DNA of 46,497 nucleotides from Pseudomonadota bacterium (lineage in GTDB: Bacteria > Pseudomonadota > Alphaproteobacteria > Rickettsiales > RGZB01), in NCBI GenBank assembly GCA_010031735.1, contig RGZB01000014.1, positions 1 through 46,497 on the forward strand. Reading direction: 5' to 3'. The notes beneath the pieces are model-generated. The model was given only the letters and a program-made list of their open reading frames with translations. It searched no databases and was not told the origin of the DNA. Of the stretch, positions 14,133 through 30,188 are shown one piece after another; positions within the stretch are counted from its first letter, which is position 1; each line of letters opens with the position of its first letter. Made by a program: the position numbers and the translations under genes.

Positions 14133-14240
14133 ATGAACTCCTATGGGTGAAAAAACGGCATCTGCCGCGTAGATAGAGTCTTACAAAACCAGACTAAGAC
14201 TTCGATGTTCGCTACGGTTATAAATGATAAGCAGCCGGTA

Positions 14241-14277: not shown

Positions 14278-14299
14278 ACCCTTCTTGGAGAAGAAGCTC

Positions 14300-14911
14300 T
14301 TAGTTCACGATGACTTTCTTGGCATTGATAAGCGACTGATTGCCGTTATCCAGATAGCCAATGACCGTGACGTTCGCGCCGGCGGATACGACCGCCGACT
14401 CTGGCGATTCGATCGTGACATTGATGCTGCCCGTATCATCTTTGAGCGTGAAGTGTTTCTCGTTACTCACATCGCCTACCGTGCCACTCAGTTTGATGAG
14501 GCCATCTTTCGGCAGGCTGTTGATTTTATAAGCAGAGGCACCCTCGAAAGAAATCGGTGTGTTTCCTTCCACCGCATCGCTCACTTTTTCAGCGAGCGGC
14601 TTGTTCACTTTCACGTTCGATGCATTGATCTCGGTGCCAAGGCCAAGGAAGCCTTTCTTCAGTGCGCCGGTGACCGTGACATTCTCGCCTTTTTCGAGCA
14701 CCACGGATTTTGCCGCACCGATATCGACGGTGATGGTGCCACTGGCATCACGCAGTGTGAATTCCTGTGCGTTCTTTACATCCGCTACTGTGCCGGAGAT
14801 GGTTACACTGCTGCCATCTTCCAAACGTTTGACGTTCGATACGGAAGCTAGTGCGCTTGTCGATGCGAAGGCGATAAGCGTAGTAATGGTGAGTGCGGCA
14901 TGACGTTTCAT
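14300..14911 (-). CDS. Periplasmic protein with two BOF (YgiW/YdeI-type OB-fold) domains
   Basis: A 203-residue protein. The start at 14911 (MKRHAALTITTL) follows CACAGGAG and begins a Sec signal peptide ending near ALAS; the upstream extension to 14962 is rejected. The mature protein has two related beta-rich units (about 25-110 and 120-203), each with VTISGTV/IKLSGTV, then FTLRDASGTI/FTLKDDTGSI and an alanine-valine end strand. This is the BOF/OB-fold pattern of YgiW-type periplasmic stress proteins. The internal duplication is unusual; such proteins usually carry one domain. Confidence 0.82.
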   Translation of the reverse strand: MKRHAALTITTLIAFASTSALASVSNVKRLEDGSSVTISGTVADVKNAQEFTLRDASGTITVDIGAAKSVVLEKGENVTVTGALKKGFLGLGTEINASNVKVNKPLAEKVSDAVEGNTPISFEGASAYKINSLPKDGLIKLSGTVGDVSNEKHFTLKDDTGSINVTIESPESAVVSAGANVTVIGYLDNGNQSLINAKKVIVN

Positions 14912-15017
14912 GGGTTCTTCTCCTGTGAAATTATATCCCATTACTACGCGTTGCGACGTCAAAAGGCGATTGGGGTGACTGCCTGAAATATAATGCCCTG
15001 ATAAAGACCTAAGACTG

Positions 15018-15050
15018 AAAAGGGCTTATGGTTACATAACCATAAGCCCC
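15018..15050 (-). terminator. Rho-independent terminator (weak tail)
   Basis: A long stem formed by 15022-15034 and 15037-15049 (GGGCTTATGG and its complement), followed on the minus strand by TTTTC. It lies just after the 15081-15815 gene. Confidence 0.65.
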
Positions 15051-15080
15051 TTGGGTGATGATGGAATCAAAACCGTTTCA

Positions 15081-15815
15081 CTAGTGCTGCAGGTTGGTTT
15101 GGGTCTGCAGGTTGGTTTCCGGTGACAGTGTATCGGTGGATACCGGAGTGTTGGTATCCGTAGTCGTATCCGTTTCTGTATCGGTTACGGTATCATCCGA
15201 GATGGTCTGATTCTCGAAATAACTGGTCTTTTTCGGTTTTGGTTTCACGGTCGGTGGTTTTGCCGGTTTCACGGTCGGCGGTACCGCCGGTGGGAAGACT
15301 TTCTTCTCTTTGCGTGCTTCGACCAGGTTACATTGGCATGCCTTATATTCTACGCCGTCTTTCGTTTTCTTGGTCACGTCGTTGCGGCAATCGATATCGA
15401 TGTAGATATCACCCTTCGGGCATTTCTTCGCGGTATCCTGCCACGGCAGGGTTGACCAGTTATCTACCGGCGTTGCTTCGGCTTGTTCATACCAGAACGT
15501 TTGTGAACCATCGATGGGAGGTTTACATGCGCAAGAGAACCTATCCTTGAATTGGATTACTTCGCTTTTGTCCGTAATCTGATCGCAACGTACCTTTATG
15601 TTACTACGCAATCCTGTGGCAATACATTTAAGTTCATCTTCCGTCGCTGTACCCGGGCCTGGTTGGCCGATCTTGAGTTTACCGGTTTCCCATGGAACCG
15701 TCTCGGTACCAGTCTGGGGTTTCGGAGGCGATGTGTTCGAACCCGGTGCCGCATGCACCACCCCCGTCACTGTGAGGGTTAAAATGGCAATCGCCGTATA
15801 TACTGTCTTGAACAT
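15081..15815 (-). CDS. Secreted Cys-containing protein with Thr/Asp-rich tail
   Basis: A 244-residue protein. The start at 15815 follows AGGAG and begins a Sec signal peptide (cleaved near VVHA-A); the frame is open to 15860. The middle part (about 58-165) has eight cysteines, probably in disulfides. It is followed by a Pro/Lys hinge with a repeated PPTVKPxKP and a low-complexity Thr/Asp/Ser tail (about 205-244). The layout suggests a surface or periplasmic protein with an extended stalk. Family not recognised. Confidence 0.75.
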   Translation of the reverse strand: MFKTVYTAIAILTLTVTGVVHAAPGSNTSPPKPQTGTETVPWETGKLKIGQPGPGTATEDELKCIATGLRSNIKVRCDQITDKSEVIQFKDRFSCACKPPIDGSQTFWYEQAEATPVDNWSTLPWQDTAKKCPKGDIYIDIDCRNDVTKKTKDGVEYKACQCNLVEARKEKKVFPPAVPPTVKPAKPPTVKPKPKKTSYFENQTISDDTVTDTETDTTTDTNTPVSTDTLSPETNLQTQTNLQH

Positions 15816-16045
15816 AGGTACTCCTGGTTTAGACACACATCTGCCTTGAACTCTAGGCATGGTATGCCTGTGCGAGGGTATTGTAAATGCCCGAACCGCC
15901 AGGTCCGAAGGCTATTTGGCCGTTATTAACCGAATTTTAATCAATTTTTAGGTATTCCTGTCTACAGGTGGATTAATTGACGGGAATCAAGGCCAGCCGC
16001 CATTTCCTATGATTAAATTCCATATAACCTAACAGAAGGTATTAT

Positions 16046-16195
16046 ATGGAACTTGCCATTGTCATCGTTACCGCGGTTTTCTTTATATGTATGTTATCGC
16101 TCTTGCTCGGCGGCTCGATCTATTATTACACGAAGAAAGACGAGGAAAAGTCGCGTGCTATGGGCCGCATTGTGAAACACCATCTGCACGCATAA
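16046..16195 (+). CDS. 49-residue single-pass membrane protein
   Basis: A small gene with AGAAGG eight bases before the ATG. The product has one hydrophobic helix (about 3-28, from MELAIVIVTAVFF), a Tyr cluster at the membrane border and a basic tail (KKDEEKSRAMGRIVKHHLHA). It lies in an otherwise empty interval, 54 bases before the receiver-like gene. No family is recognised. Support is the start signal, the coherent membrane topology and a stop immediately after the basic tail. Confidence 0.55.
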   Translation: MELAIVIVTAVFFICMLSLLLGGSIYYYTKKDEEKSRAMGRIVKHHLHA

Positions 16196-16243
16196 AACCC
16201 GCGACCTATTTAAAGATTTCTTAATAAGACAGGGGTATAATGG

Positions 16244-16846
16244 GTGGGTATGAAAGCCAACCCGGTCATACTCATTGTCTTTGATGGGAGTGATAGCGAT
16301 ATCAAACTCATCACCAGCCAACTGTTGGGTGCATCGCCTGCGGCATGGTTGTATCTGTCGCCGCACGCCGATGATGCGATGAAACAGATCAGCGAACGTA
16401 AACACGACATACTCCTGCTGGATGTGATGTTACCGAAATCTGACGTGGATGCGTCTCTTGCGTTAGGTGAGGAATATATCTATAGCCGCGAGGTGGCGTT
16501 CCGATTCAAAGAAGAACATCCGGAAGGGGTTATCCTTTTGGTTTCTTCCTATGCCGTGCAATACCAGGAGCATTATCCATCGATGTCGCGTGTGCTACCC
16601 AAAGAAGATTTACGCTCGCCCGAAGTCATACGGGAATTATTCGAGGGTATGGGCTTTGAAACACAAAAATTTATAAAATCGGTATCCGATGCAGGAGAGG
16701 AAGTACATTACCCAAGCCGTATCATGCAGGTCAGGCGGAGTGATTGGTTCAATGGCAGCAGGGAAGGCATGGAAGATTCCTGGAGCATCCGCACTTCGTA
16801 TAAAAATCCGCACGACGATGAGCCAGAAAAAGGCCGGAAGAAATAA
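16244..16846 (+). CDS. Divergent receiver-domain protein
   Basis: About 200 residues. The N-terminal 125 residues have a receiver-like fold: ILIVFDGSDSD acidic start, probable phospho-acceptor Asp60 in ILLLDVMLP, and Lys in VLPKEDL. The loop after the phospho-site is expanded and charged. The C-terminal part is polar with no DNA-binding domain recognised. Translation may begin at GTG 16244 or ATG 16250; both follow a GGGTGGG stretch. It is probably a shuttle or partner-binding response regulator. It ends 6 bases from the convergent ExoD-like gene. Confidence 0.75.
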   Translation: MGMKANPVILIVFDGSDSDIKLITSQLLGASPAAWLYLSPHADDAMKQISERKHDILLLDVMLPKSDVDASLALGEEYIYSREVAFRFKEEHPEGVILLVSSYAVQYQEHYPSMSRVLPKEDLRSPEVIRELFEGMGFETQKFIKSVSDAGEEVHYPSRIMQVRRSDWFNGSREGMEDSWSIRTSYKNPHDDEPEKGRKK

Positions 16847-16851
16847 GCCCT

Positions 16852-17460
16852 TTACCCGAAAAAGAGCAATAGCTGATCTGCGACGGCACCGAGAAGTATG
16901 AGCGTGAAAGTGCCAAGAATGAGTCCGAGTAGAATCACAAAACCGTCGCGCTTGATCAGCCCCAGTGCGATGAAGGCCATCGACCAGCCCGGCATGAAAT
17001 TGCCGAAGGGAATCGGCAGCGACATGATAGTCGCGAGTACGACGATCACAAGACCCAGCAAGGGTTGTATCGGCCGCGAACTCATCACCAAGAAGCGCGG
17101 GTAGAGCGCGTTTTCCATTTTTCTTATGGTAGGTATGCTATGCTTCAGTACCTTCGCGAAGGTTTTTGCCGGTATACGCTTTTCACCAAGGAATGTCGGT
17201 AACCACAAATCGGTTCTGCCGACCATCATCTCGAGCCCTATGATACCGATCGGAATGCCCGTGAGGGCAGAAAGTCCGGCAAAATTCGGAATCGGCAGGC
17301 AATTAGGAATACAGAACAGCAGGATCGCCAGGCCAAAAACCCGTTCTTTCAGCAGGCCGACGATATCCTCCAGGGATACGGTACGTTTGCGCTGGATCTT
17401 TGCCACCACCGTCCCTAGCAGATCGGAGGTGCGAAGGTCGTGGGTCCTCGGTTTCTTCAT
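16852..17460 (-). CDS. ExoD family membrane protein
   Basis: A 202-residue protein with the ExoD pattern: a cytoplasmic start containing TVSLEDIVGLLKERVFGLAI, then IPNCLPIPN..GLSALTGIPI and four to five hydrophobic helices. ExoD was first described in rhizobia as needed for exopolysaccharide production and alkali tolerance; its biochemical role is unknown. It is convergent with the receiver-like gene. The ribosome binding site is weak, but no other ATG fits the domain start. Confidence 0.9.
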   Translation of the reverse strand: MKKPRTHDLRTSDLLGTVVAKIQRKRTVSLEDIVGLLKERVFGLAILLFCIPNCLPIPNFAGLSALTGIPIGIIGLEMMVGRTDLWLPTFLGEKRIPAKTFAKVLKHSIPTIRKMENALYPRFLVMSSRPIQPLLGLVIVVLATIMSLPIPFGNFMPGWSMAFIALGLIKRDGFVILLGLILGTFTLILLGAVADQLLLFFG

Positions 17461-17584
17461 CTAAACATCACGCGAGTGGTTAACATCCGCTCATTGTAGG
17501 GATAATAGCGGAAGCTTCAATACGGCAGATGTGGGCAGACGATTCCCTGTCGGTATTTTATACGCTCCGTGCTAGGTAAGTGGG

Positions 17585-17749
17585 ATGAAACGCGTATTAA
17601 TCACAATACTGATCCTAACGGTTCTGCTTGCCGCTTGTGCCGATAACCACTGCACACCTGCACAGGCGAAAGAAGGTTTTTGTGGGGCTGCGCAATCGGA
17701 TTGTCCGATGAAAGACCGCGACGGGCATGGGAAATGCTGGCCCCATTAA
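17585..17749 (+). CDS. 54-residue Cys-rich lipoprotein
   Basis: A short gene with AGGTAAGTGGG before the ATG. The product has a lipoprotein signal peptide with lipobox LLAAC (Cys18), then a small domain with four further cysteines (about 23, 33, 40, 51) and charged Asp/Lys/His residues (CPMKDRDGHGKCWPH). The conserved-looking Cys spacing suggests a disulfide- or metal-stabilised mini-domain in the periplasm. Family unknown. Confidence 0.65.
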   Translation: MKRVLITILILTVLLAACADNHCTPAQAKEGFCGAAQSDCPMKDRDGHGKCWPH

Positions 17750-17856
17750 AAGCGTTAGGTGCCCGTAACCATAGGGATTTTCCCACTACCGTAAATAGGT
17801 TGCAAATCCAGGTGACATAAGAGAAAATTGGGTCGAGGAATAAAAAACGGTATGGT

Positions 17857-18492
17857 ATGCCCCATCAATCGAATAAAAAACCCCAACTGGTAGAGCGCGA
17901 AGCAAGGCATCAATGCCTCATTTACCATGGCGCTCCCTCCCAGCAATTACCGGCGCTTGGTGCGGTGCTCAAACGAAAACTAAGCGAAGGTTATCGCTGT
18001 ATGTATATTAATAGTATACCAATGGTGAATGGTATGCGGTCGTATCTGTGGACCATCGGCGTGGACGTGGAGAGCGATACCGCGAAAGGTCACTTGGTTT
18101 TCTCTTCGGAATCCTTACTCACCGAGGGTACGACGCTTGACGTCAAAGTGATGCTGAAGACGCTCGAGAACGCGCTCGATAAAGCACTTCAGGATGGGTA
18201 TAAAGGACTCTGGGCCACCGGGGATATGACATTCGAGTTTGGCTATAAGGAAAATCTTGCGAAGCTGCTCGAATATGAATATGGGCTTGAGGAACTGATG
18301 GCTAAACGCATGGAACTTTGCGGCATTTGTCAGTACCATCAGGATACGCTGCCTAAAGAAGCGACGCCACAAGCCTTACTCACCCATCCGGTGATTTTCA
18401 TCAATGAGACACTCTCACGGGTAAATTCCAACTACGTTCCTTTCGGCGCGAAGAATAATAAATCGAATCCGGATACGTGGGAATCTTCCTAA
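17857..18492 (+). CDS. MEDS-domain (DcmR-type sensory) protein
   Basis: A 211-residue soluble protein matching the MEDS domain, a sensory module known from DcmR and methanogen/methylotroph regulators. It starts with HQCLIYHGAPSQ, the domain's N-terminal His-Cys block, and contains LWATGDMTF and GICQYHQDTLP near the end. The usual DNA-binding or kinase partner domain is absent, so it must act with another protein. It lies just upstream of the tRNA-Asn-associated element and is followed by a terminator. Confidence 0.8.
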   Translation: MPHQSNKKPQLVEREARHQCLIYHGAPSQQLPALGAVLKRKLSEGYRCMYINSIPMVNGMRSYLWTIGVDVESDTAKGHLVFSSESLLTEGTTLDVKVMLKTLENALDKALQDGYKGLWATGDMTFEFGYKENLAKLLEYEYGLEELMAKRMELCGICQYHQDTLPKEATPQALLTHPVIFINETLSRVNSNYVPFGAKNNKSNPDTWESS

Positions 18493-18654: not shown

Positions 18655-18676
18655 AGAAATGGCTCCCCGGGAGGGA
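18655..18676. repeat. Left attachment site (duplicate of tRNA-Asn 3' end)
   Basis: A 22-bp exact copy of 26957-26978, containing TGGCTCCCCGGGAGGGA from the tRNA acceptor and T stem. The match stops at both outer bases (18654 A versus G, 18677 G versus T). Confidence 0.9.
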
Positions 18677-18687
18677 GCCTAACAAAC

Positions 18688-18713
18688 ATTCACTACCATT
18701 CGCAGCTATTCAC
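18688..18713 (+). promoter_or_regulatory. Phased ATTC(A/G)C repeats next to the left att site
   Basis: ATTCAC at 18688, ATTCGC at 18698 and ATTCAC at 18708, exactly 10 bp apart, so on one face of the helix. A further direct repeat of GCGTTCTTAA-type decamers lies at 18769-18788. These could be arm or accessory sites for the lost integrase or excisionase. Inference from spacing only. Confidence 0.45.
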
Positions 18714-18821
18714 TTATACCCCCTATAGCCCTTGCATTTCAAGGAAAAACACCTAATTATGTTTATGGGCGTTCTTAAGCGTTCGTAAAAAGCCGCCATT
18801 TATTTGTATGTAGGAGAGGAT

Positions 18822-18971
18822 GTGGCCAGATATAGTAATAAGTTATCAGCCGTTACAGTGAACAAGCTCAAGAAGAGGGGCTACTATGCTGATGGAGGTA
18901 ATCTGTATCTTCAGGTAAGTGAATCCGGCAGCAAATCATGGATACTGGGCAAAAACAACGGCGCACGATGA
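18822..18971 (+). pseudogene. Tyrosine-type integrase, N-terminal remnant
   Basis: Begins at GTG 18822 after AGGAGAGGA. The first 46 residues (ARYSNKLSAVTVNKLKKRGY then ADGGNLYLQVSESGSKSWIL) match the N-terminal DUF4102-type arm-binding domain of phage P4-like integrases. A stop follows at residue 50, and nothing of the core-binding or catalytic domains (Arg-His-Arg-Tyr) remains; intact relatives have about 400 residues. The reading shifts near 18940 into unrelated sequence, so a deletion is likely. It lies 145 bp inside the left att site, as expected for the element's own integrase. Confidence 0.85.
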
Positions 18972-19231
18972 TGCGCGAGCAGCTAGAGGCAGAGGGGGTC
19001 GATTTGGCTGCGCTCGTAGCTCAAGGAATCATCCGCGCACAGGAAAGCGGTGATGAACATATTTTGGCTGAATATATCAAAATGGCATTGCCCTATTGCT
19101 ACCGTAAACTCCCTGCTGAACACGAGATACACACCAACCCACCTCGGATTGATTACTCTGAGGTGTTACTTGCGCACGGCATTCCGCTTCGCGAAGATTG
19201 TGGTGGGACGGCGGAAGCAAATGGGATGTAG
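18968..19231 (+). CDS. Small hypothetical protein or gene fragment
   Basis: An open frame giving about 88 residues (MMREQLEAEGVDLAALVAQG...). It is acidic at the start, contains MALPYCYRKLP and ends without a recognised domain. There is no ribosome binding site before the ATG, and the frame runs upstream into the deletion junction with the integrase remnant. This favours a 5'-truncated fragment of a longer gene, perhaps phage-derived; no family is assigned. It is followed after a good AGGAGG by another ATG (19250), whose frame soon becomes antisense to the helicase gene. Confidence 0.4.
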   Translation: MMREQLEAEGVDLAALVAQGIIRAQESGDEHILAEYIKMALPYCYRKLPAEHEIHTNPPRIDYSEVLLAHGIPLREDCGGTAEANGM

Positions 19232-19319
19232 CCGAGAGGAGGCTCAATAATGACTGAAAATACAGGCCTTATAACTCTGAGGTGCCTCTATTTGGTTATT
19301 GTCTTATTCGAGCACTGTT

Positions 19320-21707
19320 CTACCTGCCCCTTCGCCTCTTCGGTCTTGACGACGATCCAGCATCTCCAGGGGGATCCTGATTATCTCTATAACGGCTTTC
19401 CATCCCAATCTTGTGCTTTACCCATTCAAGCTCGCTTTCATTGAGGCACTCTTCTTGCGAAAGCCCAGACTGTCTTTTTTCAAATCTGGTACGATGGCCA
19501 TCAATAGTTGGCGGTTGTGTACGAGATTTTTGTAATCTTCCCCAAAGCTCCGCAAACTTTATATCCTCATCTTCTGAGCCACCCAACTTTACCCCTAACA
19601 ATTCAGCAAATTCTTCACGGTTTTTCCATTCTCGGGTTTTCCCCTTCTGATAATTTGTGGTCCCTTCCCACCAGGCTTTTGCATCGTCTGCGGTTTTTCC
19701 TTCCACCCCCTGGTAAATCATCTGTAAAGCATCAGGATAGAGGTAAAGATCTACGCTCCGCTTATCATCGCGGTGAAAATCAAGATATTTTACCGGAACC
19801 GATATACTTATCTTTTCTCCGTCTTCTCCAAGCGTAAAACTGACACTACGAGCAAGCGGCGGCCTGATAGAAAAATTATGACTAAGCTGTTCCTTAATAT
19901 CCATTAATTGCTCATATTTTTTTGTTCCTCGATTAATTCTGAGCACTATGGCAGCCTTCTCGAAGGTTAGAGCCTCTGGAGGATGCTGGTCTTTTATCTT
20001 GCCATATAAAAGCCCTCTGAAATTCTCCAGAACCAGCTTATTAACCCCAAACACACGCTTCCCGGTTTCCTCATCCCGGAAATAACCTATCATGTCTATG
20101 GGAAAGCGCATTTCCCGATAGGTAAGCGGCCCCAGGATCGCCACCGTTTGCTCTTGTGCTCTTCTTTGCACATATGCTTGCTCAAGCCCTTGCATAAGAG
20201 GCTCTATGGCTTTTTCAGAACGCTTTAAGGCCTTAGCTAGTTCCGGAAGAGTGTAGGTGCTAGCATCTTTGATGGGTAATCGCTTGGTATCCCTCTCTTC
20301 TTGTCGACGCGCTAGAAACTCATGCATATCCCTCTGATAATAATGCACGGTTAAACCGTCTACCGTTGGGAAAGGTGAAGCGGCTTCTCCGCTGCCACCA
20401 CTCTGGCTGGGTTGATAGGTTGCTTCTTCATCGGGAACCCATAAACCTCCAAGAACTTCACCAGGAATTGCTTGATCAAACATTCTCCTCGATACTGTAG
20501 CGGTCATTCCATAAGCACGCCTTTTGTCTTCATGCCTGCGATCGATACGGCCAAAGAACTGCACTGGGGGAATGGGTGAGCGATTGAAAGATAAATCAAC
20601 AGCAATTTGTGCAGGAGGTAGATCAGCACCGGTGCTAATTATCTCCGCGTTGGTAAGGGCGCAATGACCTGTGCCGTTATTATAGTTAGTAACGATGGCG
20701 ACAAGGTCGCCGGAATCAGTTTGGCCACTTACCGCTTGTGCATAACCCTCACCAAAAAAATCGTTCAGCCTATCAGCAAAACGTCCTGCAAGACTGATCG
20801 TGGGAAAACGCCAAATAGATTGCATGTCACGAAATGGCGTTCCAGTAAGGGGGCATTTTGTGCGTGGATTTGTAAAGAATTTGAATGCAGCTTCTTCAAT
20901 TCCAGATTGTTCATAAACCCTACGCCGGAACGCTTCTGTGTATTCTCCGTCTGGCGTAATTTCCCCACCTGAACCAGGATCATAGTTTACTTCCAGTACG
21001 ACATTAACCGTTTCAGCAATAATCTCGTCTTTGGCAGCCTGTTTAAACGTCATCTCCCGTATGTATGGTTTTCCGTCCAGGACATAATCAGCAACAGAGA
21101 GTCCATCGAGGTATATATCGGTTGCTGTAAACATGACCACATGACAGTTGGGCCGCAATACTTCACGGACGAATCTACCAATACCGTCATATTCATTGCC
21201 ACGGGCGGCGAGGTGAGCTTCATCAATAATAGTAAGGTCATATTTTGCGGGATCTAATATCTTATCAGCATACAAAATCTTCGCTTCGGAAAACGTCATG
21301 GCGGTTATAGATGCATCCAGCGCCGCCTGCAGCCTTCCTGCGCTAGCACCGGGTATGTATGCTTGAGCATGCTCTGCTGGAACACCAAACAGCTCAGCGT
21401 TATGCAGCTTTCTGATAAACTGATCACGCAAATACCCTGTAGGGAAAATAGCGAGAACTTTTCTGTCATACGCAAAATCCCCATCTAATCGACGATTCAC
21501 TGCAACTGCCAATGCGCCTGCAATAATACTTTTTCCAGAACCCATCGGATCCTTGATGATGCCGTAGGTGGCCTCAGTTCTGAAATGATTCGCAGTAAGG
21601 GGCAACGCATCTCGCTGATGATCCCATAGCCACGGAATTACATTATCATCATGAGTGGCTAATATTCTATCTATTACCATTCTACGCTGTGTTGAGTGTA
21701 ATGCCAT
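19320..21707 (-). CDS. SF2 DEAH-box helicase, element cargo
   Basis: A 795-residue protein. Helicase motifs are in order: Walker A DPMGSGKS (53-60), DEAH (162-165), FTAT (193-196, motif III), ISTGADLPP (about 357-365, motif V) and QFFGRIDRR (383-391, motif VI). An insert of about 110 residues separates the two RecA-like lobes. The C-terminal half (about 440-795) is not recognised; it has several short helix-turn-helix-like stretches (for example TLPELAKALKRSEKAI) and ends in a basic tail (SSSRPKRRRGR). It should be an ATP-driven DNA or RNA translocase. It is third in an operon, 33 bp after the 850-residue gene, with GGAG before the ATG. Confidence 0.9.
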   Translation of the reverse strand: MALHSTQRRMVIDRILATHDDNVIPWLWDHQRDALPLTANHFRTEATYGIIKDPMGSGKSIIAGALAVAVNRRLDGDFAYDRKVLAIFPTGYLRDQFIRKLHNAELFGVPAEHAQAYIPGASAGRLQAALDASITAMTFSEAKILYADKILDPAKYDLTIIDEAHLAARGNEYDGIGRFVREVLRPNCHVVMFTATDIYLDGLSVADYVLDGKPYIREMTFKQAAKDEIIAETVNVVLEVNYDPGSGGEITPDGEYTEAFRRRVYEQSGIEEAAFKFFTNPRTKCPLTGTPFRDMQSIWRFPTISLAGRFADRLNDFFGEGYAQAVSGQTDSGDLVAIVTNYNNGTGHCALTNAEIISTGADLPPAQIAVDLSFNRSPIPPVQFFGRIDRRHEDKRRAYGMTATVSRRMFDQAIPGEVLGGLWVPDEEATYQPSQSGGSGEAASPFPTVDGLTVHYYQRDMHEFLARRQEERDTKRLPIKDASTYTLPELAKALKRSEKAIEPLMQGLEQAYVQRRAQEQTVAILGPLTYREMRFPIDMIGYFRDEETGKRVFGVNKLVLENFRGLLYGKIKDQHPPEALTFEKAAIVLRINRGTKKYEQLMDIKEQLSHNFSIRPPLARSVSFTLGEDGEKISISVPVKYLDFHRDDKRSVDLYLYPDALQMIYQGVEGKTADDAKAWWEGTTNYQKGKTREWKNREEFAELLGVKLGGSEDEDIKFAELWGRLQKSRTQPPTIDGHRTRFEKRQSGLSQEECLNESELEWVKHKIGMESRYRDNQDPPGDAGSSSRPKRRRGR

Positions 21708-21740
21708 TTACTCATCTCCATCTTATCGTATCATTGTTCC

Positions 21741-24293
21741 TTAACTTCTTGGCCTATTAGCGGCACCTCTGGCTTGCTCTTTTAATTGCACCACTTTTCC
21801 AAAAAATTCTTCACGCTGCCGCACCGTGGCCACTGCATCACTAAAGTATTCAATTGGACGGCTGGGACTATATTTTTCCGGTACGCTTCTCCTGGTAACT
21901 CTTACTGCTTGGTCGGTGGTAGGATTCGTGTAAGGAGAATACTCGTTGTTTGCATGTTCTCTGAGCGACGCATTGATTTGTGCGATAAAAGGTTCGATAA
22001 GTTTTTCATCTTCGGCTTTTACACGAAAACCGATTTCAACTGGATTGCCAATGTGCTCAATATCTTTCTTGCCACGAATCGGGTGTAACACTGCCTCATT
22101 ATTGTTAAAGCGCGCTGCCCTTCTCAATTGCAGGCGAAACACAATACTTTCTCCCTCCTGACGTTGTGTGGAAGTCACTGCAGCAAGGTCAGCTATGGGG
22201 TGGACGTTATCTCTATCACGATAAAAAGAATCTGTGATGATGTCACCTAACTTCCTGCGATCCAAACAGACCGCTCCAGATTGCTGTAGACCATCCTTAT
22301 TGATTAATTGGTGCTCCAGTGTTATTGGATCAAACAATAGCTGATTATGATCATTTTCTTTCACCAGCTTTCCACCTTCAAGTGCCCAAACTGCTCCGAT
22401 TGAGTGCAGTCTCTCAAGTTGATAGTAGAGGCGCTCCATAAATTCTGCGCCAATAATCTTTGCTGCCTCGGGATCTAGTGTCCCAATCTTGCGATAGAAA
22501 ACTCTCCTATATTCGCTCCCTTTTTGCTCCCCTTCGCCACCTGCTTTTATGTGTATCTCACCTCTAATCGCAAAGCTATCTCCGTGCCGCTGGACACATG
22601 CTGGCCCTGCGAAGGTTTGCTGATTCTGATCATTAGAGCCATCTCCTATCAGCACTCTCTCCTTAAACGCCTCTACAGGAATAACCTGTGCTCTGTGCCA
22701 CTGTTTCTGCTTTATCAAATCGTTTCGAGCTTTCTTAACAACGGCCGCTTCTTCACTGTCAGTCCTATCTTTCTTCTCCACTCCCGCAAGATCTTTTATA
22801 AGCTCGTCTTGCCACTCAGCCTTGGTCATGGACTGTCGACTATCTGTCTTTTCTCTCATTACCTTAAGGAGTATCTCTTTTCGCCTCTCTGCTTCTTCGT
22901 GTGCCGCTTGAGCCTCGTCTCTGGTTGCCTCAACGTTACCATCCGGAATTTTGTACTGCACACCCAGGGGTACTGTAGCCTCTACTTTCTTAATGACATC
23001 TTTATAGCTTTTATCTTCCTGCCTTACTCGACGCGTTTCTTCAAACACACACTTAAGCGCATAAACATCGCCCTCGTTTCCTAGAATAGCGGATGTCAGT
23101 TTCTTGGTTTTTGAACTTTTACCCATCGGCAAATGATCGTTCCTTCTAATATTGCCTGAGCCAGTTCCTTCTTTTGTAACCTCGTAATATGGATAAATAT
23201 CGTCACGATCAAACAGATAGCTTTCTACCGCACGGCGTATGATATTTGCATCATCCAGGTCTATGGAGGTGTCATAAGAGCGCGTAAATTTCTCGTTCTT
23301 ATCGTCAATAAACACGATGTCTAGGCGATGCGTTCCTTCAGAACTTAGTATGCACTGCAACATATTTTGTGGAGGGTCTTTTGCCAGCACTTCCGGTAAG
23401 ACAATACAATCCATTTCATCCATTATTTTCCGGATTATTCTTTCAACATCATCACTTTTCGGCCGCTGCCTTTGTACGCGGTCAAGTATAACTACTTCTA
23501 TTTTTTCTATTTCTTCTGGCGCTTCATCAGGCTCCGTTTCTGTAGCCGGTTGGTCCTGTTGTGGCATAAGCGTTTTCAGTCCCACCGCGGCAAGGGCTTG
23601 CTCGGCTAAAACGGATCTTCGATGCTCTAGCTGCTGTCTTACCTCTTCATCATTTTCTCGTAAAGCGGGGTTGGGCGATAGGAGTAAGAGCTGTATTTCA
23701 TGAAGCTCAATAATGGCCTCACGACTGCCAAGCGCCGAGACCATGATTACCGGAGCCCTTTCAAGTGCGGCAAGCGCACGCTGATTTGCTTCTTTCCAAC
23801 GTTCTGTAATCGCTGTTTCCATCTGCTGGATCAATCGATCCAAATCGGAAAGGACTCCTTTCCTGTTCTCAGGAGCAACTCCCACCTGGAAGTGCGCCTT
23901 CAATTCGCCAGTATTTCCTATAACTCTGGTGGCAGATAGCTCATCAATATATCCAACATTGACCTCAGCATATTCTGCGCTGGCAGCATTATGAATGATG
24001 TTGTGCTGAAGCAGCCGCAGCAAAACTTCAGCTCTTCTGACCTCCTTCTCCGCACCAACAGCCGGCGTATTCTGCTCTGCAAGTAACTCTGATATGGCAT
24101 TCCTTAAGCGTGTTTCTGCTGCAATAGGCCTCTCAGGAACATCGGCATCTTCAGACGTTGATATATGTTCTGCTATTCTTAAAATATCATCTGACAATAG
24201 TGCCGAGCCCAACTCCCGGTGTAATGGGTTGACTGGTATTAGAGAGCGAGTAATGGCTCTAATTTCTTGGGGCTCTTTATCCACCTCTGCCAT
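21741..24293 (-). CDS. Unrecognised 850-residue protein, helicase operon
   Basis: A large soluble protein with no signal peptide or membrane helix. N-terminal half: helical, Glu/Arg/Leu-rich, with a coiled-coil-like region (about 155-235). Middle (about 260-285): acidic Glu/Pro linker. Then a mixed alpha/beta region (about 290-395, with HRLDIVFIDDKNEKF), a charged helical stretch (455-530) and a C-terminal region (about 580-850) with beta-like segments and a second-domain feel (RGEIHIKAGGEG; VFRLQLRRAARFNN). No motif of a known nuclease, methylase or ATPase could be confirmed. A very strong AAGGAGGGG precedes the ATG, which overlaps the end of the upstream gene by 17 bp. Confidence 0.85.
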   Translation of the reverse strand: MAEVDKEPQEIRAITRSLIPVNPLHRELGSALLSDDILRIAEHISTSEDADVPERPIAAETRLRNAISELLAEQNTPAVGAEKEVRRAEVLLRLLQHNIIHNAASAEYAEVNVGYIDELSATRVIGNTGELKAHFQVGVAPENRKGVLSDLDRLIQQMETAITERWKEANQRALAALERAPVIMVSALGSREAIIELHEIQLLLLSPNPALRENDEEVRQQLEHRRSVLAEQALAAVGLKTLMPQQDQPATETEPDEAPEEIEKIEVVILDRVQRQRPKSDDVERIIRKIMDEMDCIVLPEVLAKDPPQNMLQCILSSEGTHRLDIVFIDDKNEKFTRSYDTSIDLDDANIIRRAVESYLFDRDDIYPYYEVTKEGTGSGNIRRNDHLPMGKSSKTKKLTSAILGNEGDVYALKCVFEETRRVRQEDKSYKDVIKKVEATVPLGVQYKIPDGNVEATRDEAQAAHEEAERRKEILLKVMREKTDSRQSMTKAEWQDELIKDLAGVEKKDRTDSEEAAVVKKARNDLIKQKQWHRAQVIPVEAFKERVLIGDGSNDQNQQTFAGPACVQRHGDSFAIRGEIHIKAGGEGEQKGSEYRRVFYRKIGTLDPEAAKIIGAEFMERLYYQLERLHSIGAVWALEGGKLVKENDHNQLLFDPITLEHQLINKDGLQQSGAVCLDRRKLGDIITDSFYRDRDNVHPIADLAAVTSTQRQEGESIVFRLQLRRAARFNNNEAVLHPIRGKKDIEHIGNPVEIGFRVKAEDEKLIEPFIAQINASLREHANNEYSPYTNPTTDQAVRVTRRSVPEKYSPSRPIEYFSDAVATVRQREEFFGKVVQLKEQARGAANRPRS

Positions 24294-25878
24294 GTTCCCC
24301 TCCTTCCAAATATTTTAAGCCGGGGTGGGCATCGTCTCGTGTTGCCTCTGCTATTATTTTTTTTGCAATTACTTGTGCTGGTTCCAGGCTATACCCAATA
24401 GAACCACCGCGCCGTGTGCCAACCTCACTCGCCAATCCTGATCTAACTGCCGCCTGCCTTTCGCGGAATTTATCCAGATTGACTTTGGGCGGATCAACCT
24501 GAGTTTGTGGCGGCGGAGTAACATCTAGCGCGGGCAACTCTCCCCCAAGCTCAACTAAACCAACCTCTGCAAATCTGATAAATTTTTGATAAATCAGATA
24601 GTTGATCGGGAAATCTTTCTTGACTCTTTCCGTGTCATATTCTGAATTGTGCAGCCAGCCATGTAGAAAACCAATCCTTCTTCCGATAAGTAAATCCAGT
24701 GGGCCTATACCCTTTGCTACATTTTCATAATATGTGTTACCTGTTAACTTTTTTTCGAACTCACGCTTTGCTTTCTCTTCCAATCCATCTTCTATTTGCT
24801 CAACAATACGAGGGGGAAATAAATTAAAGACAGCACCGGCTATATTCATACCCAAATCATCTGGATCTTTCGATACAGGTGACTGAAAATAGGCCACCTT
24901 GGAGATGGTTCTCTTGGAAAACCCCAACTTGGTTGAGTTATCAAATAGAACAATGCCTGCACTAGCTAAGGAAAGAAGGCTCCTGAATAATTCAGGACAG
25001 AATGGAGAGGTATCGAGAATATTCTGAAGTGCCAAGACTCTTTTTTCCCCTATGGGGGTAACGCGTTTTGCTTCATTAGCAGCCACCACCGCTCGGGATG
25101 ACGCGATAACCTGATCCAGATTGTCGACAACCTTTCCTCGGGCGGCGTTATACAAGAGCTCTTCCCAGTTTTGTGCGGGCACCACTTCTGTAAAGTATTT
25201 AATATTTCTCCGGATAATACTATCGTCGTCTAAGCCGGAGAGAATTTTATCTATTACCACGTCCACATCGTCAAGATCAGCTGGCTTTAATGTGGTGAGC
25301 GCCAAGTGAAGAGGCATATGACCAATATCAGGCTTGGGAGTAGTTAATCTAATACTGTCCAACACAGACATCGGGTTGCCTATGAGCGGAATTACGATTT
25401 CATCATGTCCTATGATAGGGTATTTGGGTCTTTCTCTCTTAGCAGCACCCCTTTTAATTCCAGCATTGATATAAAGCTTCTCCATGATCGCCTCAGAGAG
25501 ACTTTGAGGATCTGGATATGTAGTTGAATCTATTACCTCTATCTCTCCTCTATCGATATTTGGCCGGATGCGATTGATTATTTCTCTAAGCTGTGCGTCC
25601 CCTTTGCCTTTCCAGAAGGAATCGGCTGGTTTTGGCAAGGTTGCGACAGCCACAGGGTAAGGTTCTCTAAGCATTTTATCTAAGTCTGCTAAGACGGCGT
25701 CCTTACGCTCAGGTTCCCTGACTTTCATTATAGCCACTCTATCAAGGACATAGATCTCTTTTATGTCCCGTCCATAGGATAATTGAGGCGCAATGGTGCC
25801 GTGAAGGTCCCTAAAGACACTTGTTTTTTGATCAAGTTCTTCAGGCGTCCCACCCGCTACAATGATGACTTTGGCCAT
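24277..25878 (-). CDS. Unrecognised 533-residue protein, first gene of helicase operon
   Basis: A soluble protein. The first 130 residues look alpha/beta: strand AKVIIVAGG, strand EIYVLDRVAIM, strand VAVATLP, strand EIEVIDSTT. The middle (about 165-430) is mostly helical. A Pro-rich linker (PPPQTQVDPPKV) precedes a polar Gly/Glu tail. There is no signal peptide, membrane segment or recognised catalytic motif. It is the first gene of the three-gene unit: a perfect -10 box lies about 25 bases before the ATG, and the next gene starts inside its 3' end. Function unknown; it could be a sensor or structural partner of the helicase. Confidence 0.85.
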   Translation of the reverse strand: MAKVIIVAGGTPEELDQKTSVFRDLHGTIAPQLSYGRDIKEIYVLDRVAIMKVREPERKDAVLADLDKMLREPYPVAVATLPKPADSFWKGKGDAQLREIINRIRPNIDRGEIEVIDSTTYPDPQSLSEAIMEKLYINAGIKRGAAKRERPKYPIIGHDEIVIPLIGNPMSVLDSIRLTTPKPDIGHMPLHLALTTLKPADLDDVDVVIDKILSGLDDDSIIRRNIKYFTEVVPAQNWEELLYNAARGKVVDNLDQVIASSRAVVAANEAKRVTPIGEKRVLALQNILDTSPFCPELFRSLLSLASAGIVLFDNSTKLGFSKRTISKVAYFQSPVSKDPDDLGMNIAGAVFNLFPPRIVEQIEDGLEEKAKREFEKKLTGNTYYENVAKGIGPLDLLIGRRIGFLHGWLHNSEYDTERVKKDFPINYLIYQKFIRFAEVGLVELGGELPALDVTPPPQTQVDPPKVNLDKFRERQAAVRSGLASEVGTRRGGSIGYSLEPAQVIAKKIIAEATRDDAHPGLKYLEGGEHGRGG

Positions 25879-25888
25879 AATTAAGCTT

Positions 25889-25925
25889 CCCAGTTGAACA
25901 TCATTATAGTGCGTAATGATTAATG
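25889..25925 (-). promoter_or_regulatory. Candidate promoter/operator of the helicase operon
   Basis: On the minus strand a perfect TATAAT (25903-25908) lies about 25 bases before the ATG at 25878; the -35 region is poor. Just upstream (about 25914-25933) is an AT-rich imperfect palindrome (TAATGATTAA / TGAATTATTA, 16 of 20 bases symmetric), a possible operator. Weak promoter plus operator would suit a repressed or activated system. Confidence 0.45.
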
Positions 25926-25958
25926 AATTATTAACATGTTGGGGCTATTCTGGCGTAA

Positions 25959-26075
25959 ACCGCCTGCAGCACCGCGGAGCATGAGCACCAGGCACTCAAA
26001 TCTGAAAAGCAAAGAATGCTTGAGACCATCAAGCAGGCCTTCCTAGAAGCCGAGAAGTTTTTACAGAGTCAGTAA
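25959..26075 (+). pseudogene. 3' remnant of an unknown gene
   Basis: A plus-strand frame of 38 codons from after a stop at 25956. It ends in a helical, charged stretch (AEHEHQALKSEKQRMLETIK, then QAFLEAEKFLQSQ) and a stop at 26073-26075. There is no start codon signal, and the sequence reads like the C-terminal end of a coiled-coil or helical protein. The rest is missing on its 5' side, where the helicase operon promoter now lies. It marks a second junction inside the element. Confidence 0.4.
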
Positions 26076-26145
26076 TTAAGAGGCCGTGGAGAGCCTCATG
26101 CTCGAAGCTCTCCACGCCCTGTTACGCTGTCAAAAGTCAATGACC

Positions 26146-26364
26146 TTACTTCATCTCCTGCTGCGCCTCAACGAGATAACCCTGAATCGTTTCAACCAAG
26201 CTCTTGGTGTTCATGAGTGTCTCAACGGCAACCGTGCTAAAATGCTCTGGTTTGACAATCGCATTAAGGCGATCACCAATTGAAAGCAGAGCCTCAATGC
26301 GTGCAGCTACAACTTCCAGCAGGCTTATTGCGTCGGTTACTGAGATATTGGGATTTTTACTCAT
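26146..26364 (-). CDS. Small helical protein, element
   Basis: A 72-residue protein. The start at 26364 follows AAAGGAG at good spacing; the frame is open to 26454, but that part overlaps the upstream gene. The product (MSKNPNISVTDAISLLEVVA...) is almost fully helical with regular Leu/Ile spacing, so a short coiled coil or bundle. The start overlaps the stop of the preceding gene by 8 bp, so the two are translationally linked. Not recognised. Confidence 0.65.
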   Translation of the reverse strand: MSKNPNISVTDAISLLEVVAARIEALLSIGDRLNAIVKPEHFSTVAVETLMNTKSLVETIQGYLVEAQQEMK

Positions 26365-26629
26365 GATTGTCTCCTTTGGTTGGGTTGTTTGGTACAGCAG
26401 CGCTACCATCACTTTCTTCAAGAGCTTTTGCACCCGCTTTTTCGCGCTCTTCACGTATTAGCCTTTTAGCAAGCTCTATGTACTTTTTATCGTCCTCTTC
26501 TTCCTCTATGCGCTGCTGTTCTTTCTCTACGTGACCATGAGATGTGAATAAGCTTAATAAACTTCTCGAAATATGTTCCTCTTCCTCTATACGACATTGC
26601 TCTTCTAATGAATGGATCGCATTGGTCAT
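26357..26629 (-). CDS. Small Glu-rich helical protein, element
   Basis: A 90-residue protein dominated by Glu, Lys and Arg (IEEEEHISRS, RIEEEEDDKKYIE), probably one or two long charged helices with a polar tail. GAGGAG precedes the ATG. It lies 2 bases after the lipoprotein gene and overlaps the next gene by 8 bp, so the three small genes are one operon. Function unknown. Confidence 0.65.
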   Translation of the reverse strand: MTNAIHSLEEQCRIEEEEHISRSLLSLFTSHGHVEKEQQRIEEEEDDKKYIELAKRLIREEREKAGAKALEESDGSAAVPNNPTKGDNHE

Positions 26630-26631
26630 GA

Positions 26632-26838
26632 CTACTTCTCCTCTTCGCGGATAAGTTCACAACCTTTGCCACCCGCATTGCTGCCGGTGTTCACTACCAG
26701 ATCATAAAGCTCTTGAGTGGTTACCCACTTCTCCACACCATTGCAGCGCACATGCTTCATCGGCATAGATTGCTTCGTATGTGGTGAGGTGGTGCAGGCG
26801 GTAAGTAGTATAGGAAGGATGATGAGAAATTTAGACAT
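26632..26838 (-). CDS. Small lipoprotein, element
   Basis: A 68-residue protein. The start at 26838 follows TAGGAG and opens a lipoprotein signal peptide (MSKFLIILPILLTAC, Cys15). The longer frame to 26943 is rejected. The mature part has two more Cys (near VRCNGVEKW and GGKGCELI), suggesting one disulfide. It heads the three-gene small operon beside tRNA-Asn. Phage spanin-type or plasmid entry-exclusion lipoproteins have similar size, but nothing in the sequence proves this. Confidence 0.65.
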   Translation of the reverse strand: MSKFLIILPILLTACTTSPHTKQSMPMKHVRCNGVEKWVTTQELYDLVVNTGSNAGGKGCELIREEEK

Positions 26839-26927
26839 AAGCGGTCTCCTACATGCGTTGTTGAACGTTTGTAGCCGCGAATGATTTGTAGGTAAGTTTG
26901 TATGTTGAAAGCGCTCTATAAAGAGCA

Positions 26928-26959
26928 TCTCACTGATATACAAAGACTAATCAGTGAGA
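26928..26959. repeat. Inverted repeat beside the right att site
   Basis: Perfect 10-bp arms TCTCACTGAT (26928-26937) and ATCAGTGAGA (26950-26959) with a 12-base spacer; the right arm overlaps the first 3 bases of the att repeat. A smaller hairpin (GCTCT/AGAGC, 26913-26926) and three TTTGTA repeats (26868, 26885, 26897) lie just inside. TTTGTATG also occurs near the left end (18803). Candidate recombinase or accessory-factor sites. Confidence 0.55.
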
Positions 26960-26978
26960 AATGGCTCCCCGGGAGGGA
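26957..26978. repeat. Right attachment site within tRNA-Asn
   Basis: A 22-bp exact copy of 18655-18676. It covers the CCA, discriminator, acceptor strand and part of the T stem of the tRNA gene plus 5 bases outside, so the tRNA stays intact at this end. Confidence 0.9.
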
Positions 26979-27036
26979 TTCGAACCCCCGACCATTCGAT
27001 TAACAGTCGAATGCTCTACCGCTGAGCTACCAGGGA
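26962..27036 (-). tRNA. tRNA-Asn (GTT)
   Basis: 75 bases with CCA encoded. Acceptor TCCCTGG pairs with CCGGGGA (one G-T), anticodon loop CTGTTAA gives GTT, T arm GGGTTCGAATCCC. The 3' end serves as the integration site of the adjacent element. Confidence 0.97.
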
Positions 27037-27158: not shown

Positions 27159-30100
27159 TTAGTCCCCTCGGACGGCCAGGCAGGTGACATCACGGTCTTT
27201 CAGTTTATGGCAGCGGTCGCTCGCGTCAAAACGGCTGTAGAGGGGCCCTGCGCGCATCTGGTAGCGCGCATCTTTAAGCCCGAAGGTTTTCGGTACATAA
27301 ATGCTCAGTTTCAGCGCATTCAGTACGTCTTTATGTTTCTCGCTAAGCTCCTTCCAATGCTTGAGTACTTCGGATTCATCCTTGAAGCTTCCAAGCTGGA
27401 GCCAGTAGATCGTGCGGTCGGGATTGGCATCGTAGGTGAAACTGTCGGCCGTATGTTTTTCGGGCTGGAAGGCGAGCGATTTGATCGGGACACCCTTGCC
27501 GAGTTCGTAGATTACGGAGCAGGTAAGCGCCCCTTGTTTGAACAGCGTACAGGCTTGTGCGGCATCCTGCGAGTTGTTGAAGTTACCGACGCGTAGCGCC
27601 AGGCTCTTCGTACCGTCAGGATTATCCATCGACTGGGTTTTCATGCGCAGGCTTAAACCCTCGCGTGCAATGGTTTTGTCGAACAACTGGAAGGCATCCT
27701 CTTCGTTTGCGAAACTCGCAAGCTCGATCCAATAACCGCGTGCGCCCTCGCTCTTATCCGAGCCGAACCATCCGCCGGAACGCAAATCGAAATTCGGTTT
27801 TGCATCCGGTACCGCGACCACGCGGACATTCCGCGGTGTCGAGAGCGGTACGCGGACGGCTTCTGCCACCTCAACGGTACCTTGTTTTGCGGCTTCTGCA
27901 TCCGGCACCATGACGGGTTCGTCACTGCCGGCGGCGGGGCTCGGTGCGATCGCTTCGATATCGGCGATCGTGGCCTCTTTCTTCTGCCCTGCTGGATCCA
28001 TCGTACCTTCCGATGGATCCGGTGCTGCTCCTGCGAGCGGAGGAAGATCGGATTCAGCAACAGATGGGGTCGGGGTGGCGTGGCCGGTATCGATAGCGGT
28101 TGCGGGTGCAGGAGTGAAGGCCTTATTCTCGAGGGCCGCCAGCTGTTGCCAGAATTCGGCGTCGCTTTGTGCGTTACTCTTTTCGGTTTTCTTGATCGGT
28201 TTCGCGGCAGCAGGTTTTTGCGGGGTGGGCTCTATAGATTGCCTGGCAGGTTTCTCCGCCGGCGGCACCGGGGCTGCTACCGGTGGTTTGGATGCTTGCT
28301 GTTTCTTGATCGCGTTCAATTTTTTGAGGAGCACATCCGTGCTTTGCTGCATCTGCTCGCGATCGAGTTCTTCTTCGGTCTTGCCGGTATCCGCATGGTT
28401 TGCGGGTGGGTTGACCTTTACCTCTGGTGCAGAGGGTTTCGGCGGCGGGCCACCATGTTCGGTCTCCGTCGGGGTTTTATCATTGGCCGGTGGCAGCGGT
28501 GGCAATTCCGGTGGCAGCTCAGGTGTTGTCTGGGGTTTCGGCGCGTCCGGGGTTTCGATGCGCACGATCACATCCTCCGGTGGTGTGGAGGGTGCCGGCG
28601 CCGGCGCGTCTGCTTTTGCGGATTTCTTCTCCGCGCTCTTTGCCGGGGGTTCCGTTGGTTTGACTTCCGTCGGCTTCACCGGTTTGGCGGTTTCCTTCTC
28701 GGGAGCGGGTGTTGCTTCGAGCGGGGGGAGTTCGATTGTAGGCAGGGCAACGTTAGGTGCAGGGGCTGGCGCAGCGGCCGTCTCTTTCGGCGCGGCAATC
28801 GTAGCAGGGGCTTCCGGGATTTTTACAGGGGCAGGGGGCGTGGTGGTATCGATTACTGTCACGGCCGGTGCGGTGGTGGCTTCACGCTGTTTGCGTTCGG
28901 ATTCGATGGCTTTCTTCGCCGCCTCTACGCGCTCTGTTGCTTCTTTCGCGGCATCTTCCTTTGCTTTGGCGACCTTTGCCGCCTCGATGGCACCCGCTGC
29001 CTGTTTTGCGGCTTCGATGCGTGCCTGTTCGATTTTTTCAGCCGCACGTTTTGCAGCATCCAGACGGGCTTTGCGCTCCTCTTCATCGGCGATGATTTTT
29101 GCAGCAGCGACTTTCTCTGCCTCCTGGCGGTCGGCATCCTTGCGGATATCCTCCATCGACTGGTTCGGGTTCACCGGAAAGGGTTGCAGTGCGGCGGAGG
29201 GTGTTCCTTCAAGCGATACGGGAAGATCGGCGGGGGTTGGTGCTGCCTGTGCTACCACCGGTGCTACCGGTGCAGGCACCGCAGCGGGGGCAATCGTGTT
29301 ACCGCGTAGATTCTGCGTGATGGCTTGTGCCATTGCAGCGGTGTCGGTGGGTTTGTTTGCGGGAGCAGATGATTTTGCAGAAGGTGTCGCGGCATCGCGC
29401 ACCGAGAGCACGAAGAAAGGCTTGTTCGCAGGACTTTTCTGTGGGGGCACAGCAGTTGCGGCACTGACGGCGCTATCCACCGGGCTTTGATACGGTGCAA
29501 GTAAGCTTAAGACCTCGGGATCATTCTTCTCGCGTGCGATATCGACCGCGGATTGGCCTTTCATATTCACCGCACTCGTGTTCGCACCACCCATCAAAAG
29601 CAAACGAACGATCTTGCTGTTCTTGGTCTCCGCGGCTTTGAGGAGCGGTGTTTCATTCTGTTTGTTGACGGCATTCACATCCGCACCCGATTCCATGAGC
29701 AGGCGTGCGGCCCCTTGCTTGCCAGCGGCAACGGCACGCATCAAGGGCGTCCAGCCCTCGCTGTCTGCCATATCGACATAGGCGCCGTAACGGATCAGCA
29801 TCTTCACGATATCGACATTGTCCTGACGCGCGGCGAGATGGAGGGCAGTCGCACCACCCACATCGACCGCGTTCGGGTTCGCACCGGCAGAGAGCAGCAT
29901 CTCGGTCGTGGTGAAATTGCCTTTGAAGGCGGCGCGCATCAGCGGGGTGACATCGAATTTGCCGCGACTATTCGCAGAGTGGCGCTCGCGGATCAGGCGG
30001 GAAGCCTCCATCGTATCGCCATGTTCGATGGCATCGACGAGCGGTTCATCGAAGGAGGTTTCTTCAGCATGGGCGAGGGGAGCTACACCAAGCAGGCTTA

Positions 30101-30188
30101 CGGTGAGAAGAAGTCGCGCAGCACAAAGACTGCCCAGGATGGGACCAGAAGCCGGTATTTTCCAATTAAACCGCCAGTCTTTACGCAC
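27159..30188 (-). CDS. Ankyrin-repeat/SPOR-domain envelope protein
   Basis: A 1009-residue protein read from a GTG start preceded by AGGATAGG. Signal peptide or anchor about 24-42 (LLLTVSLLGVAPLAHA). Ankyrin repeats about 50-230 (TPLMRAAFKGN, TALHLAARQDN, TPLMRAVAAGK, TPLLKAAETKN). A very long Ala/Pro/Lys-rich region (about 235-800) contains alanine-rich helices with EEERKARLDAAKRAAEKIE-type repeats. Two C-terminal SPOR domains follow (about 820-905, GYWIELASF; and 925-1009, IYWLQLGSF). SPOR domains bind denuded septal peptidoglycan, ankyrins bind proteins, so a periplasm-spanning division or envelope scaffold is likely. Ankyrin plus paired SPOR in one chain is unusual. Confidence 0.88.
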   Translation of the reverse strand: MRKDWRFNWKIPASGPILGSLCAARLLLTVSLLGVAPLAHAEETSFDEPLVDAIEHGDTMEASRLIRERHSANSRGKFDVTPLMRAAFKGNFTTTEMLLSAGANPNAVDVGGATALHLAARQDNVDIVKMLIRYGAYVDMADSEGWTPLMRAVAAGKQGAARLLMESGADVNAVNKQNETPLLKAAETKNSKIVRLLLMGGANTSAVNMKGQSAVDIAREKNDPEVLSLLAPYQSPVDSAVSAATAVPPQKSPANKPFFVLSVRDAATPSAKSSAPANKPTDTAAMAQAITQNLRGNTIAPAAVPAPVAPVVAQAAPTPADLPVSLEGTPSAALQPFPVNPNQSMEDIRKDADRQEAEKVAAAKIIADEEERKARLDAAKRAAEKIEQARIEAAKQAAGAIEAAKVAKAKEDAAKEATERVEAAKKAIESERKQREATTAPAVTVIDTTTPPAPVKIPEAPATIAAPKETAAAPAPAPNVALPTIELPPLEATPAPEKETAKPVKPTEVKPTEPPAKSAEKKSAKADAPAPAPSTPPEDVIVRIETPDAPKPQTTPELPPELPPLPPANDKTPTETEHGGPPPKPSAPEVKVNPPANHADTGKTEEELDREQMQQSTDVLLKKLNAIKKQQASKPPVAAPVPPAEKPARQSIEPTPQKPAAAKPIKKTEKSNAQSDAEFWQQLAALENKAFTPAPATAIDTGHATPTPSVAESDLPPLAGAAPDPSEGTMDPAGQKKEATIADIEAIAPSPAAGSDEPVMVPDAEAAKQGTVEVAEAVRVPLSTPRNVRVVAVPDAKPNFDLRSGGWFGSDKSEGARGYWIELASFANEEDAFQLFDKTIAREGLSLRMKTQSMDNPDGTKSLALRVGNFNNSQDAAQACTLFKQGALTCSVIYELGKGVPIKSLAFQPEKHTADSFTYDANPDRTIYWLQLGSFKDESEVLKHWKELSEKHKDVLNALKLSIYVPKTFGLKDARYQMRAGPLYSRFDASDRCHKLKDRDVTCLAVRGD

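Follow-up and report, generated by a model that had tools for sequence, protein, structure and literature searches.

A superfamily 2 helicase and two orphan proteins on a degraded integrative element: a helicase module and candidate defence system in one alphaproteobacterial order

When a helicase is encoded on a mobile element together with two large proteins in which no domain can be recognised, the question arises of whether the genes form an undescribed defence or conflict system. Such a locus, encoding a superfamily 2 (SF2) DEAH helicase and its two neighbours, was found at positions 19320 to 25878 of contig RGZB01000014.1 (assembly GCA_010031735.1) from a Pseudomonadota bacterium of the order Rickettsiales. 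The whole stretch of 46,497 nucleotides (positions 1 to 46,497 of the contig) is called the window below (G000:C36; the G000 genome comprises 2.38 Mb in 251 contigs). An original prediction, made from the letters of the window alone, had proposed a three-gene helicase operon in a degraded mobile element that matches no known multi-gene helicase defence system. From the analysis reported here, the locus is very probably a mobile module of a helicase with orphan partners, which elsewhere in the order takes the form of a helicase with one giant partner protein.

The operon could be verified as three consecutive open reading frames (ORFs) on the minus strand, in the order p533 (24277-25878; 533 aa), p850 (21741-24293; 850 aa), and helicase (19320-21707; 795 aa). 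All three frames are real, and their GC contents at the three codon positions (about 0.57/0.39/0.40) follow the pattern of real genes. The p850 gene has a strong Shine-Dalgarno sequence (GGAGGGGAACATG) and the helicase gene a moderate ribosome-binding site of the GGAG type (GGAGATGAGTAAATG), while that of p533 is weak. Of the two tight overlaps initially described, the 17-bp overlap of p533 and p850 (24277-24293) was found as stated, but the 33 bp reported for the second junction are a gap between p850 and the helicase (21708-21740). Since the helicase frame spans just 795 codons from stop to stop, an overlap with p850 is impossible, and the fixed stoichiometry that had been read from the junctions is therefore not implied. 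The GC content at third codon positions (GC3) of the three genes is foreign, 0.40 to 0.41 versus 0.54 to 0.66 for the nine other genes of the window that were measured.

These genes are carried by an integrative element of 8.3 kb (18655-26985) that is bounded by a 29-nt direct repeat, one copy of which (26957-26985, plus strand) overlaps the 3' end of a tRNA-Asn (GTT) gene found with both ARAGORN and Rfam (26962-27036, minus strand), the integration target, while the distal copy (18655-18683, plus strand) forms the other end of the element. The copies are identical at 26 of 29 positions, including the first 22 nt, and this 22-nt core is present twice in the genome, with no further copies even when two mismatches were allowed. 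At the tRNA-distal end lies a truncated tyrosine integrase gene of 55 codons (18804-18971, plus strand) that retains the N-terminal arm-binding domain only (Pfam PF13356, Arm-DNA-bind_3; E 7e-5, below the curated cut-off); the remainder of the integrase was not found within the element. Direct repeats that include a tRNA 3' end, together with this remnant, identify a tRNA-integrating genomic island, so that the degraded mobile element of the original prediction is confirmed and given exact limits. As the integrase is reduced to its first 55 codons, the element is probably no longer self-mobile. The three operon genes are its sole large intact content, and given that the operon is intact and that p850 and the helicase are both preceded by good ribosome-binding sites, the cargo has outlasted the mobility of its carrier.

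Full-length relatives of the helicase were found in two of the other genomes when 105 genomes of the order were searched, which brings the genomes with a partnered helicase to three. Both relatives, G057 (locus L016) and G005 (locus L017), belong to families of the order other than that of the window genome. Their helicases, of 845 and 945 aa, are encoded directly downstream of giant genes for proteins of 2049 and 2750 aa, with overlaps of 32 bp in G057 and 13 bp in G005. The alignment of p850 with the two giants is colinear and falls in the C-terminal part of each (Smith-Waterman Z 8.9 and 6.4, with none of 200 shuffles reaching the observed score), of which p850 is thus the counterpart. A p850-family gene followed by a helicase gene therefore recurs in three families of the order, at about 25% identity and with overlapping or near-overlapping junctions. 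The module is conserved and patchy, it is mobile in two of the three cases, and its partners lie outside any described family. The layout with p533 as a third gene occurs once. p533 occupies the position matching the N-terminal region of the giants in the relatives, but showed no detectable homology to these regions (Smith-Waterman shuffle Z -0.7 and 0.5). A profile of the N-terminal modules of three further loci of the family (L056, L058, and L039) did not match p533, and one built from a wider set of modules gave 4.0 bits, which is above all of its 200 shuffles, yet with an E value of 2.7.

The helicase itself carries the SF2 motifs in order, GSGKS56 (motif I), DEAH162 (motif II), TAT194 (motif III), and QFFGRIDR383 (motif VI), and matches the Pfam families ResIII (E 3e-9; 37.4 bits against a cut-off of 22.5) and DEAD (E 2e-7), in agreement with the DEAH helicase originally called and with a ResIII-type member of the SF2 DEAD/DEAH group. 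The nearest solved relatives of its core (residues 1 to about 440) in the PDB are archaeal XPB/RAD25, RadD, and the type I restriction R subunit. The core alone also matches phage helicases, and in PADLOC it gave weak cross-matches only (mREase_IV, PbeA, IIG, and DrmD; E 0.002-0.03). Beyond the core lies a lineage-specific C-terminal extension of about 350 aa, and the three-way alignment of the window, G057, and G005 helicases (27% identity) reaches the C-terminus. Compared with the two other partnered helicases, residues 440 to 795 scored Z 22 and 27; compared with five unpartnered SF2 helicases, Z was -1.0 to 2.4, although the core aligned with all seven. From these alignments, the extension is clearly common only to helicases that adjoin a giant partner, and the simplest reading is that it may serve as the docking part for that partner.

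A core-only relative of the helicase was also found in G052. It is encoded in a satellite-like element (L018:1821-10886, G052:C4) together with a D5/DUF5906 primase-helicase, a tyrosine integrase, and a 368-aa orphan, and its C-terminal half has about four tandem copies of a repeat of about 75 aa (NWQSVAALQKKYVG...). This satellite-like element is a candidate cargo carrier in its own right.

The partners had been described as lacking recognisable domains, and this held: neither p533 nor p850 gave a match in Pfam, PADLOC, PHROGs, NCBIfam, or the PDB sequences, and p533 has no homologue in any collection searched. Searches of 50,697 phage records and of 72,556 plasmids yielded no match to the partners, and neither did pattern scans of IMG/VR, all of these scans being limited in sensitivity; no match to a non-defence family was obtained either. 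AlphaFold models could be built for p850 from three sequences and for p533 from a single sequence, with mean predicted local distance difference test (pLDDT) scores of 40.6 and 35.9, respectively; in p850, mainly residues 395 to 535 or so reached 60 to 80. The structure search with the p850 model gave no meaningful match, the Foldseek hits having template modelling (TM) scores below 0.1 on the query. Other candidates were set aside as well. A match to Pumilio over a short stretch in a PDB profile search with ten family members (E 2e-4) was read as a chance match between helical repeats, and neither the degenerate zincin-like folds seen by eye in the N-terminal modules nor a repeated strand-strand-strand-helix unit in the p850 core is claimed, both being without a database match.

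The operon was compared with the helicase defence systems already described. As originally stated, it matches no known system, and no PADLOC system model fits it. For Zorya, DISARM, BREX, Gabija, and the other PADLOC 2.0 systems, only weak cross-matches to the helicase core were obtained and none to the partners. The nearest architecture is that of type III Druantia, which consists of DruH, large and of unknown function, and the 1667-aa DUF1998-containing DruE, and which is reported to block the circularisation and replication of phage DNA in M. smegmatis (PMC13316683). There, too, a big protein without recognised domains is encoded with an SF2 DExD/H helicase (PMC13316683). However, the partners are not detectably related, no operon protein matched DruE or DruH in PADLOC, and the locus is not assigned to Druantia I to III, because the helicase (795 aa) is half the length of DruE and the MZB/DUF1998 domain (PF09369) is absent from all three module genomes (it is present in 8 of 14 control genomes). 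Hachiman likewise pairs a protein of unknown kind with an SF2 helicase, but HamB has 1174 aa (PMC13316683) and HamA is about a quarter of the size of DruH, whereas here the two partners add up to 1383 aa, and the single giants have 2049 to 2750 aa; none of the three proteins matched the HamA nuclease or the HamB helicase in PADLOC. RadD and archaeal XPB (RAD25) are the closest solved relatives of the core, but the window helicase differs in its C-terminal extension and its operon partners, and its match to the NCBIfam RadD model (NF053632) is weak, 15 bits against an equivalog cut-off of 720, so that it is not classed as RadD. Finally, subunits of type I, III, and IV restriction translocases share the ResIII and SWI2/SNF2-type core, and the mREase_IV matches in PADLOC were weak; the operon encodes no nuclease, methyltransferase, or specificity subunit. 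A literature search found no described module of a helicase and a giant protein.

The surroundings of the three partnered loci differ. The G005 pair lies on contig CAIJLX010000103.1 (48 kb; L017, L030, and L020 = G005:C103), a mobile island in which genes of defence lie together with prophage genes. A full-length type IIG/type I-like restriction-modification fusion (2401 bits) and a type II methyltransferase were found on it, along with RepB/ParB proteins, a phage terminase, a tyrosine integrase, and two large serine recombinases. A GHKL ATPase and a PDC-M36A-like protein are encoded on the same contig, and two orphans of 546 and 554 aa (L017:4984-8289) adjoin the helicase/giant pair. The GC3 of the G057 pair is host-like. 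Endonuclease V and an antiporter are encoded nearby, as is an RTX/type I secretion locus, at which type I secretion genes were seen together with the RTX acyltransferase HlyC and a very large RTX-like gene (L016:17828 onward and L021, G057:C5). No attachment-site repeats were found at tRNA genes of G057, including the tRNA-Ala gene beside the pair, or of G005. Of the three partnered loci, one thus belongs to a mobile region rich in defence genes, another is alone on an integrative element, and the third is in unremarkable DNA.

Using profiles A2 and A3, we found the p850 family in 8 of the 105 genomes of the order, the further members being in G036 (three loci), G052, G015, G067, and G103; a sample of 385 genomes of the class yielded it only in G000 and G015, both of this order. 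Ten sequences from the eight genomes can be aligned and share conserved points that include C314, P389, G444, R471, W532, A611, W636, and F817 of p850, while the N-terminal regions are variable. In G036, one giant is split into ORFs of 1124 and 640 aa with a 4-nt overlap (L041:6729-12022, G036:C4), at a point other than that between p533 and p850, which indicates that fission of these proteins recurs; a repetitive autotransporter-like protein of 1818 aa adjoins it (L041:13544-19000). A second G036 member is a 1738-aa giant with three tandem N-terminal modules, encoded downstream of a fusion of GNAT and flavin amine oxidase (L039:8639-16587, G036:C10). The gene for the 966-aa member in G067 immediately follows that for a 628-aa ABC1/atypical-kinase-like protein (L058:3-4826, G067:C18), a possible alternative partner of the family.

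What, then, does the module do? Its setting and the analogy to known systems make an anti-phage or anti-mobile-element function the best single guess, one to which we give somewhat less than an even chance. The pointers may be seen in the cargo of a mobile island that has outlived its integrase, in the association of helicase and partner across three families, and in the place of the G005 locus among restriction-modification, recombinase, and prophage genes. The fuller proposal is more tentative still, namely that this is a new alphaproteobacterial defence system in which an XPB/RadD-like double-stranded-DNA translocase would be joined to a large-protein family through its dedicated extension, with the partner family acting also without the helicase. 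Any specific mechanism is doubtful. In the one proposed, the helicase, p850, and p533 (or the giant) would act as one complex on DNA, with the partners providing recognition or a scaffold. The helicase, attached by way of its C-terminal extension, would use ATP to move along double-stranded DNA, as a translocase of the XPB, RadD, or type I R-subunit kind. The translocase would block or remodel incoming phage or plasmid DNA at circularisation, replication, or transcription, and blocking or remodelling rather than cutting is suggested because no nuclease domain was seen. By analogy, its working mode would resemble that of type III Druantia, with homology in the helicase core only.

Several observations weigh against a defensive module. 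Chief among them is that the partner family also exists apart from the helicase, together with its restriction to one order. Seven loci in five genomes encode p850-family proteins with no adjoining helicase; several of these loci are core chromosomal sites, where the neighbouring genes (read by eye from translations) include mraZ/ftsL, RNase D, cheB, and an ECF sigma gene, and four of these five genomes gave no helicase match. The family is therefore not bound to the helicase and may function without it or with other partners. Every relative found sits in one alphaproteobacterial order, and the partnered loci total three only, among which the G057 pair is not clearly mobile, since its GC3 is host-like and no attachment-site repeat lies beside the tRNA-Ala. 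Effector domains, whether nuclease, NADase, membrane, or other, were not seen in the module. In addition, the G005 extension scored Z 5.8 against a helicase of G461, so that the extension may be somewhat wider in distribution, and part of its specificity may be distance, because the unpartnered control helicases are also more distant in the core.

Some of the same evidence would suit other explanations. The XPB/RAD25 and RadD relationship of the core, with the weak RadD match and the host-like DNA and nearby endonuclease V of the G057 pair, would agree with a lineage-specific accessory of DNA repair or recombination, in which a RadD/XPB-like remodeller with clamp or scaffold partners serves genome maintenance and came onto the element by chance. 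This is unlikely: the presence of a partnered helicase in 3 of 105 genomes is too patchy for a housekeeping role, the copy in the window belongs to an integrative element, and the partners have no known repair domain. A role in the element's own biology, be it replication, maintenance, anti-restriction, or transfer, we hold to be similarly improbable. The window and G005 copies do lie on mobile DNA with integrase, recombinase, RepB/ParB, and terminase genes, and in G052 the core-only helicase relative sits beside a D5-type primase and an integrase; against this, no primase, initiator, relaxase, or origin was seen in the window element, the partners are absent from the phage and plasmid records searched, the G057 copy is not visibly on an element, and the p850 family is present also at core loci.

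The partners might instead be lineage-specific large cytoplasmic or translocated proteins, for example factors of predator or host interaction, some of which picked up a helicase. A family that is order-restricted as far as searched, N-terminally variable, and multi-copy in G036, with members next to an ABC1-kinase-like protein or a GNAT/amine-oxidase fusion, would be consistent with this, but no secretion signal or system could be linked to it, and it would leave unexplained why a helicase that has a conserved extension of its own repeatedly lies immediately downstream; we consider it quite unlikely. That three unrelated genes were simply joined by integration, without joint function, is very improbable, even though p533 has no homologue and the three-gene layout was seen once only, as the order of p850-family and helicase genes is kept in three families at such low identity and with such close junctions.

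The remaining ORFs of the element are small. A 97-aa ORF with no confident family (18938-19231, plus strand) lies near the integrase remnant. Between the operon and the tRNA, on the minus strand, are a 76-aa ORF without a family (26146-26376, a shorter-start reading of 26146-26454), an acidic 90-aa ORF (26357-26629), and a small lipoprotein-like ORF (26632-26943) in which a signal peptide and an LTAC lipobox were seen by eye. Outside the element, the DNA to its left (5054-18492) has somewhat lower GC and many stress and envelope genes, recognised by eye, among them response regulators, a histidine kinase, and Dps-like, CsbD-like, fasciclin-like, and OmpA-like genes. Across the tRNA, positions 27159-30188 encode a 1009-aa protein with N-terminal ankyrin repeats and a C-terminal SPOR-like region, again by eye.

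Should the module be defensive, it would be a further helicase-centred system that has escaped recognition, with a protein family that present profile libraries cannot see, in lineages that have hardly been sampled for defence. It also offers a test of whether the architecture of a large orphan protein with an SF2 helicase arose repeatedly, as type III Druantia, Hachiman, and the present module. Even if it is not defensive, the p850 family is a new and alignable family of large proteins.

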